A stretch of 62,533 nt of DNA from positions 1 through 62,533 of the IMG/VR virus record IMGVR_UViG_3300031963_000146; one strand, 5' to 3'. The position numbers and the translations under genes are program-made. Position 1 is the stretch's first letter; the number at the start of each line of letters is the position of its first letter. This DNA comes from a virus. Of this stretch, positions 40,062 to 62,533 are shown piece by piece. The notes below the pieces were generated by a model. The model worked only from the letters and a program-made list of their open reading frames with translations. It was not told the DNA's origin and ran no database searches.

Positions 40062-41999
<1,938 letters not shown>

Positions 42000-61482: not shown

Positions 61483-61554
61483 CGCGTGAAGGTGTAATTG
61501 GTTGCATGGGACGCTCATAACGTCTACGGGGTGGTTCGAATCCACGACACGCTA
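61483..61554 (+). tRNA. tRNA-Met (CAU), atypical acceptor
   Basis: The anticodon arm is GGACG/CGTCT with loop CTCATAA (CAT). The D-arm GTGT/GCAT and T-loop TTCGAAT are standard. The acceptor CGCGTGA/ACACGCT has only five clean pairs, with an unpaired C1 against T72 and A7 against A66. The unpaired first position recalls initiator tRNA. An Ile tRNA with a modified C34 is also possible. CCA is not encoded. Confidence 0.75.
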
Positions 61555-61755: not shown

Positions 61756-61816
61756 CGCAAAAAACATGAGATGGAGTTTCCTTACCTCAACAGAGATGGG
61801 TTTTAGAAGTCCAAAT

Positions 61817-61888
61817 TGTCCCCTCGTCTAATCGGCAGGACACATGGTTTTGGTCCATGGAATCGAGGTTCGAACCCTTGGGGGACAA
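61817..61888 (+). tRNA. tRNA-Gln (UUG)
   Basis: The acceptor TGTCCCC/GGGGACA is perfect. The D-arm GTCT/GGAC is present. The anticodon stem CATGG/CCATG encloses TTTTGGT (anticodon TTG). The T-arm is CGAGG TTCGAAC CCTTG. CCA is not encoded. Confidence 0.88.
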
Positions 61889-61890
61889 CA

Positions 61891-61984
61891 ACACGTAAAC
61901 CTAAGTACCCATACCGCTGACGGTGGGCTAAGTAAGATACAATTTCGTACCGCGGGAAGTAGAATGCTTAGGAGCGTGTTTTTT
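61891..61984 (+). ncRNA. Structured non-coding RNA 2 in tRNA array
   Basis: A long-range closing stem ACACG/CGTGT and CCTAAG/CTTAGG (61891-61905 with 61967-61979) encloses a hairpin CCCA-TA-CCG/CGG-TGGG. The 3' strand ends in T6. The layout suggests a discrete RNA with an intrinsic end. Confidence 0.5.
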
Positions 61985-61986
61985 AT

Positions 61987-62101
61987 AGTCAGGTGGCGGA
62001 ATGGTATACGTACTCTAATGTGGTTTGACCCACTCTAAACATTAGAGTTAAAAAACCGAAGATGGGAAGTAGGTTTACAGGTTCGAATCCTGTCCTGACT
62101 A
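61987..62101 (+). tRNA. tRNA-Leu-like gene with enlarged anticodon loop (A)
   Basis: The acceptor AGTCAGG/CCTGACT is perfect. The D-arm GCG/CGT and TGGCGGAATGGTA match Leu-type tRNA, and the T-arm ACAGG TTCGAAT CCTGT is perfect. The anticodon stem CTCTA/TAGAG encloses 25 bases, not 7. A 7-base direct repeat ACTCTAA (62012 and 62032) marks a possible 20-base insertion. The anticodon cannot be assigned. It may be an intron-bearing or non-functional tRNA. Confidence 0.55.
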
Positions 62102-62103
62102 CT

Positions 62104-62228
62104 AAACTAACCAAGGAGCTGAATAAAAAGTAAGCAATAAGGAGTGAAAATAAATACGAATGTTTTACTATGGGAAATGGGACCGTAACTCAAGCGTATA
62201 TAGGTTGCGATCGGTAGGTTAGTTTTTT
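62104..62228 (+). ncRNA. Structured non-coding RNA 3 in tRNA array
   Basis: A closing stem AAACTAACC/GGTTAGTTT (62104-62112 with 62217-62225) embraces about 105 purine-rich bases and ends in a T6 run. It has the same architecture as RNA 2 and lies 5 bases before a second Leu-like tRNA gene. Confidence 0.45.
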
Positions 62229-62232
62229 ATAT

Positions 62233-62391
62233 AGTCAGGTGGCGGAATGGTAAACGCAGGTTTGTAGGTTACGTGCCATGAGTTGAAAGCAACCTTAAAC
62301 GGGGTTAACAACCGAAAAGATAGCTCGCTATTGACCTGAATTGACAGGAGAATTAAATAATGGCTTACAGGTTCGAATCCTGTCCTGACTA
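62233..62391 (+). tRNA. tRNA-Leu-like gene with long insertion (B)
   Basis: The acceptor AGTCAGG/CCTGACT and T-arm ACAGG TTCGAAT CCTGT are identical to copy A, and the D-arm is GCG/CGC. The candidate anticodon stem AGGTT/AACCT encloses 28 bases. A further 70 bases lie before the T-arm with hairpins GATAGC/GCTATT-like and CCTG/CAGG. The total of 159 bases is about twice a normal Leu tRNA. The anticodon is unassigned. Confidence 0.5.
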
Positions 62392-62394
62392 CAC

Positions 62395-62501
62395 CTTAAT
62401 ACCGATTCGAGTTTGACAATTAAGAGGGACCTTGCTCCTTAAGTGGAAAAAATGTCGTTAAATAACCCTCCGCACCAGGTGGCATCGGTGACCTGGTTTT
62501 T
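62395..62501 (+). ncRNA. Structured tail RNA with strong terminator
   Basis: Nested stems CTTAAT/ATTAAG (62395-62424) and GAGGG/CCCTC (62424-62470) precede a terminator hairpin ACCAGGT/ACCTGGT (62474-62497) with T5. This closes the tRNA array transcript. Bases 62502-62533 are AT-rich with no recognised feature. Confidence 0.55.
62474..62501 (+). terminator. Intrinsic terminator at end of tRNA array
   Basis: A perfect 7-bp stem ACCAGGT/ACCTGGT with a 10-base loop is followed by a run of T. Confidence 0.85.
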
Positions 62502-62533
62502 AAAAATATTTGGTTATTTAAAATTATAGTTGT

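Follow-up and report, generated by a model that had tools for sequence, protein, structure and literature searches.

Phage tRNA arrays are usually viewed as sets of translation helpers. They can also act as counter-defences, and the phage tRNAs that evade defence in this way are working tRNAs with changed anticodon loops (PMC10264068, PMC11555353). Other phage non-coding RNAs, GOLLD and ROOL, are encoded near tRNA islands and have folds of their own with no tRNA frame, GOLLD often exceeding 800 nt (PMC12286853). In tmRNA, a tRNA-like end domain without an anticodon is joined to an extra RNA domain, and in the engineered tRNA scaffold of E. coli, which yields stable RNAs, the acceptor, D and T arms are kept and the anticodon stem-loop is swapped for cargo (PMC3753655). 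The E. coli LeuRS needs A73, A15-U48, G18G19, A20a and the contacts between the D and T loops, but not the anticodon or the variable arm, and a minimal tRNA-Leu from which both are missing can still be charged (PMC9976931).

The window analysed here is the whole of one virus record, 62,533 bases in length, and its last kilobase is a tRNA array in the order Glu (61406), Met-like (61483), Trp (61684), Gln (61817), followed by two RNA genes termed copy A and copy B; the features of the window given here with start and end coordinates are on the plus strand. Like bacterial tRNA-Leu (RF00005), these genes and their relatives have acceptor, D and T arms, A15-U48, G18G19, A20a and A73 and lie in tRNA arrays, but instead of an anticodon arm or a type II variable arm they carry 23-120 nt of unrelated sequence. 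They differ from the engineered scaffold in being natural and Leu-type, with many cargos that are exchanged between phages, and from tmRNA in being Leu-type and far shorter, with a complete D arm, a U3-A70 pair where tmRNA has G3-U70, diverse interiors and no tag reading frame. They resemble GOLLD and ROOL in being encoded near tRNA islands and, in one subfamily, in a palindromic kissing loop that could dimerise, but they have no Rfam match of that kind. We found no earlier description of such Leu-tRNA-framed RNAs in the open-access literature, although one elsewhere is possible.

Two genes with leucine tRNA arms and no anticodon arm

In both copy A (61987-62101, 115 nt) and copy B (62233-62391, 159 nt), the acceptor, D and T arms of a Leu-type tRNA are intact and an anticodon arm is missing; the lengths and coordinates that an earlier note on this DNA had given for them were exact on re-reading the sequence. 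The 5′ frame of copy A (61987-62011) comprises the acceptor strand AGTCAGG (61987-61993), U8 and G9, and the D arm (61996-62011), in which A15 lies at 62001, G18G19 at 62003-62004 and A20a at 62006, as part of the same frame that recurs in hundreds of elements. Its 3′ frame (62077-62101) comprises the T arm (62077-62093), the acceptor strand CCTGACT (62094-62100) and A73 (62101). In copy B, the acceptor strand and D arm occupy 62233-62257 (A15 at 62247, G18G19 at 62249-62250, A20a at 62252) and the 3′ frame 62367-62391 (T arm 62367-62383, acceptor strand 62384-62390, A73 at 62391). The two copies had been described as sharing perfect acceptor and T arms, and indeed AGTCAGG pairs with CCTGACT at 7 of 7 positions in both, and both have the T arm ACAGG-TTCGAAT-CCTGT. 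The hallmarks of the tRNA family RF00005 are therefore present (a 7-bp acceptor, a 5-bp T arm with a TTCRA loop, and a D arm), and both copies carry by sequence all LeuRS determinants, namely A73, A15-U48, G18G19, A20a and the D-loop/T-loop contacts. With the Rfam tRNA model RF00005, copy B reached 37.8 bits in an alignment that skips the anticodon arm, whereas copy A fell short of the gathering score; ARAGORN called neither copy as a tRNA.

The interior of copy A (62012-62076, 65 nt, U48 at 62076) replaces the anticodon and variable arms, and that of copy B spans 109 nt (62258-62366, U48 at 62366). No canonical arm, defined as a 5-bp anticodon stem with a 7-nt U33/R37 loop, is present in the interior of either copy, which agrees with the earlier description of enlarged loops without a standard anticodon arm. 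The loop sizes given there depend on the stem chosen: copy A has a 25-nt loop if the stem is taken as CTCTA/TAGAG (5 bp), but this helix extends to CTCTAATG/CATTAGAG, with 8 bp and a 19-nt loop, and the 28-nt loop of copy B is a weak detail because it needs a 4-bp GGTT/AACC helix that is not favoured by the energy model.

The direct repeat ACTCTAA noticed in copy A is real, with copies at 62012-62018 and 62032-62038 that start 20 nt apart. Two exclusive folds are predicted for copy A, because its two ACTCTAA repeats compete for a single TTAGAGT and its two GGTTT for a single AAACC. Fold I has two arms (62013-62020/62040-62047 and 62053-62057/62072-62076), and fold II is nested, with 62022-62026/62053-62057 enclosing 62032-62038/62042-62048. 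We rejected a reading of CTCTAAA as an amber-suppressor anticodon loop, because it has no flanking stem and the loop sits inside a longer helix.

The interior of copy A recurs unchanged in a phage contig of 140 kb (L078/G001) and with a single change in a second contig, L405, where G62022 is replaced by A, which would weaken fold II and leave fold I unharmed. The interior is thus 98-100% conserved, and the sequence shared with copy A stops at the element boundary; two neighbouring tRNAs are just 85-90% identical. L078 and L405 were the exceptions in a 16-mer scan for relatives of copy A, in which most matches were due to chance. The corresponding scan with the interior of copy B gave chance matches only, and no relative of that interior was found.

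The surrounding array contains further sequences of note. The Met-like (CAT) tRNA at 61483-61554 has a mispaired acceptor, was missed by ARAGORN and scored 26.1 bits, below the Rfam cut-off. The gap between the genes for tRNA-Trp and tRNA-Gln (61756-61816) is conserved at 12 other loci and is found after copy A in L405. A second structured RNA, unmatched in Rfam, occupies 61893-61980 between the tRNA-Gln gene and copy A; it recurs in 47 stretches of viral contigs (36 distinct), often directly upstream of an AGTCAGG element, and its outer stem, second helix and pseudoknot covary, with 43 double changes compared to 13.5 in shuffles. The gap between copies A and B (62102-62232), which is conserved in L234 (88%), L056 (78%) and L281 (74%) and closed by CTAACC/GGTTAG followed by a T run, is probably another RNA. 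Elsewhere in the window, 40356-41999 encodes a GroEL-like chaperonin (PHROG 5725, E-value 1e-150).

A viral RNA family with exchanged interiors

Rather than being peculiar to this phage, copies A and B belong to a large viral RNA family built on a constant Leu-tRNA frame. Querying viral contigs with the 20 bases at the 5′ end of the element gave at least 120 stretches, and further scans brought the catalogue to at least 473 elements with at least 397 distinct Leu-type frame sequences; because any Leu-type frame was admitted, this includes a few ordinary tRNA-Leu genes. At least 322 of the at least 397 distinct sequences are 95 nt or longer, and the shortest elements, with 73-74 nt, still lack an anticodon loop. 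The 5′ search pattern holds nothing of the 3′ half, yet a matching T arm and complementary acceptor strand were present within 260 nt in 105 of the 107 distinct matches listed, compared to 117 of 4000 random positions (3%), and therefore the Leu-type frame is not a product of chance. With a second 5′ pattern, the matching 3′ half was present in 95 of the 108 distinct matches listed.

A pattern without any acceptor sequence recovered 106 long elements with 47 acceptor sequences. Across all scans, the long elements have 56 acceptor sequences in addition to AGTCAGG, and these show Watson-Crick covariation at all seven acceptor pairs, with A73 retained in 50 and U48 (T48) in 53 of the 56. The retained A73 argues only moderately for charging, since tRNAs in general often have this base, and the conservation of the D arm derives partly from hit selection, as the D arm stood in the search patterns. 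Variants of the frame exist as well. In L379 (G001, about 7016), L305 (6413) and L006 (2478), RNAs combine an AGTCAGG acceptor with the same T arm but have no Leu D arm, the RNA of L379 lying between a gene and a terminator, and an extra hairpin is found at the same place in the D loop in two different phages (L015, 8985; L032, 7082; all positions in element orientation).

The interiors are between 23 and about 120 nt long and form about 150-190 unrelated groups (191 clusters of 395, or 153 representatives). Canonical anticodon arms were found in 4 of the 153 representatives, among them one genuine tRNA-Leu, compared to 3.25 in shuffles. The sequence beside the D and T arms is unconserved across the family except for positions 26 and 48. 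Words that could pair with the frame arms (CCTG, TCAGG, TGACA and GAACC) are depleted in the interiors, as selection for a correctly folded frame would predict.

Stable folding was rejected as a general property of the interiors, which individually show no greater stability than shuffled sequences do (mean z −0.15). Covariation demonstrates structure in one subfamily only, GTGGTATAAAT, and is suggestive in a second, ATGAATAA. In the GTGGTATAAAT subfamily (L067, L129, L264, L265 and other loci), the only one large enough for this comparison, an interior helix covaries at 6 of 8 pairs and a hairpin at 2 of 3, and in the whole RNA 97.8% of the pairs form, with 41 double changes compared to 8.3 in shuffles (0 of 500). 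The 9-nt loop of this hairpin has a 6-nt self-complementary core that appears as CTGCAG, CTCGAG, TGTACA, AGTACT or versions with G-U pairs, and this covarying palindrome suggests a kissing-loop dimer. Dimerisation was discarded as a general principle because palindromes are depleted in the interiors overall. For the ATGAATAA subfamily, all pairs of a candidate pseudoknot form, but one double change in eight sequences is too few to regard the structure as established. A second complete T-arm-like hairpin is present inside 6 of the 153 interiors, where 0.025 would be expected (L042/L091, L079, L112, L150, L334 and L353).

Interiors are replaced inside the constant frame. Among 144 pairs of elements with interiors at least 95% identical, 40 have unrelated flanks on both sides, including copy A and its counterpart in L078. 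Conversely, an alignment of L014 with L023 that spans the element covers 2,089 bp at 86.7% identity; the frames are identical, but the interiors of 73 and 60 nt resemble each other no more than expected by chance. Three different interiors occupy one locus in L211, L046 and L106, within 1.7 kb of 86-89% identity, and the orthologous loci of L310/L119 and L349/L351 likewise have unrelated interiors. In L405, the match to the window of about 90% over 61756-62004 is followed by another element at the locus of copy A, and the interior of copy A is located on the other side of the tRNA-Gln. Because one interior occurs in unrelated places and different interiors occur at one place, we conclude that the frame stays and its interior is exchanged; the simplest route would be homologous recombination between the shared arms.

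The 3′ half is present in 31 of 32 long phage contigs chosen from the matches, with 1-12 copies each, always on one strand, and true tRNAs including Leu(TAA) share the arrays with the framed elements. Among 84,980 species genomes, exact matches were confined to six contigs, five of them from MAGs and one a chance match inside a gene, and of 395 sampled genomes of the phylum to which one Chitinophagaceae MAG belongs, one matched. Because the elements are present in 31 of 32 phage contigs and nearly absent from bacterial genomes, they are a viral feature; proviruses from isolate-genome records carry them as well. BLAST of 61900-62533 against INPHARED gave no match, and querying INPHARED with the arms returned ordinary tRNA arms and one element only, MW202828.

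Possible roles of the frame and its interiors

We propose, with a probability of roughly 60%, that copies A and B represent a family of RNAs on a Leu-tRNA frame matured by the host, in which the anticodon and variable arms have been replaced by an unrelated, active and exchangeable payload. This agrees in general form with the earlier suggestion of tRNA mimics or RNAs using tRNA ends, since the tRNA ends are retained as a frame around unrelated sequence. The enzymes that mature tRNAs read the acceptor, the T arm and the elbow. Because the retained parts are those read by the maturing enzymes and by LeuRS, we infer from the sequences that the host matures these RNAs and probably leucylates them, and that the payload is functional. 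Host RNase P and RNase Z would cut the RNA from the tRNA-array transcript, CCA would be added, and the tRNA fold would shield the RNA from nucleases as in the engineered scaffold RNAs. The framed RNA would probably be leucylated yet unable to decode; such charging cannot apply to all elements because some lack the Leu D arm. Activity would reside in the payload, through binding to a protein or RNA of the infected cell. A payload role in phage-host or phage-phage conflict is a guess, made because payload replacement at fixed loci resembles loci under diversifying selection; the rapid replacement might then reflect conflict with hosts or rival phages. More tentatively still, the elements could constitute a new class of viral RNA effectors, in which a leucylated, ribosome-inert tRNA-Leu chassis serves both as a module for maturation and stability and as a handle for recombination, and the exchangeable payloads set the specificity in conflict.

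Identity with tmRNA, GOLLD or ROOL is disfavoured for copies A and B because no model matched and the anatomy is wrong: ARAGORN and Rfam give no tmRNA there, pair 3-70 is U-A, and neither GOLLD, ROOL nor other Rfam phage RNA models match. We also rejected antisense sRNAs against the phage's own genes, because the interiors show no excess complementarity to flanking phage DNA (n = 120, p = 0.73), nor do copies A and B to nearby phage DNA compared to shuffles.

The conserved frame and variable interior would also fit a decoy, in which the tRNA-like fold itself is active and absorbs or survives attack on the acceptor end or elbow of tRNAs, and the interior drifts freely as long as it avoids decoding and anticodon nucleases. 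Phage tRNAs do counter tRNA-attacking defences (PMC10264068, PMC11555353), and Cas12a3 cleaves tRNA tails (PMC12851939). We nevertheless consider this unlikely, as the interiors do not drift: identical ones persist in unrelated contexts, that of copy A is 98-100% conserved in two other phages compared to 85-90% for two neighbouring true tRNAs, and interior helices covary in the GTGGTATAAAT subfamily. A pure decoy frame, possible as it is, leaves conserved payloads unexplained. The retained LeuRS determinants, and the charging of a minimal tRNA-Leu without both arms (PMC9976931), would suit a leucylated non-decoding RNA acting in translation or amino-acid transfer, which binds EF-Tu or another acceptor and is guided by its interior; the lack of a reading frame or common interior, and the elements without Leu D arm, make this distinctly improbable. 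That the frame serves mainly as recombination handle of a mobile cassette, a selfish RNA gene from which the phage gains nothing, would explain why shared sequence ends at element boundaries and why interiors are swapped in place, but the folding constraints on the interior suggest an RNA function, and we give this reading very little weight.

The intron-like reading raised in the earlier note is similarly disfavoured. The insertion lies at the usual site of tRNA introns and the direct repeat of copy A surrounds 20 nt, but none of the eight possible single removals of 18 nt from the enlarged loop of copy A yields a Leu anticodon, and copy B has no defined stem for such a splice test. The inserts are, as had been remarked, too short for group I introns, and neither copy matches the Rfam group I or II intron covariance models. 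Moreover, the elements of 73-74 nt leave no room for an intron yet lack an anticodon loop, the sequences beside the arms are unconserved, and normal tRNA-Leu genes exist in the same arrays, so that small spliced-out introns in tRNA-Leu genes appear highly improbable. Decaying tRNA-Leu pseudogenes would lack an anticodon arm too; this is the least credible reading, contradicted by the acceptor covariation and the conserved interiors, and also by the intact T arm, A73 and U48, and up to 12 copies per phage.

The preferred reading of a host-matured frame with an active payload means that many phage tRNA arrays hold, beside true tRNAs, genes for non-decoding tRNA-Leu look-alikes with swappable RNA, which may pass as tRNAs for the maturation enzymes and perhaps for LeuRS. 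Such genes would account for some of the phage tRNA calls labelled 'undetermined'. Because the same locus and frame occur with different payloads, their function is testable by allele exchange, and the family would open a route to new RNA counter-defences and provide the tRNA scaffold of biotechnology with a precedent in nature.
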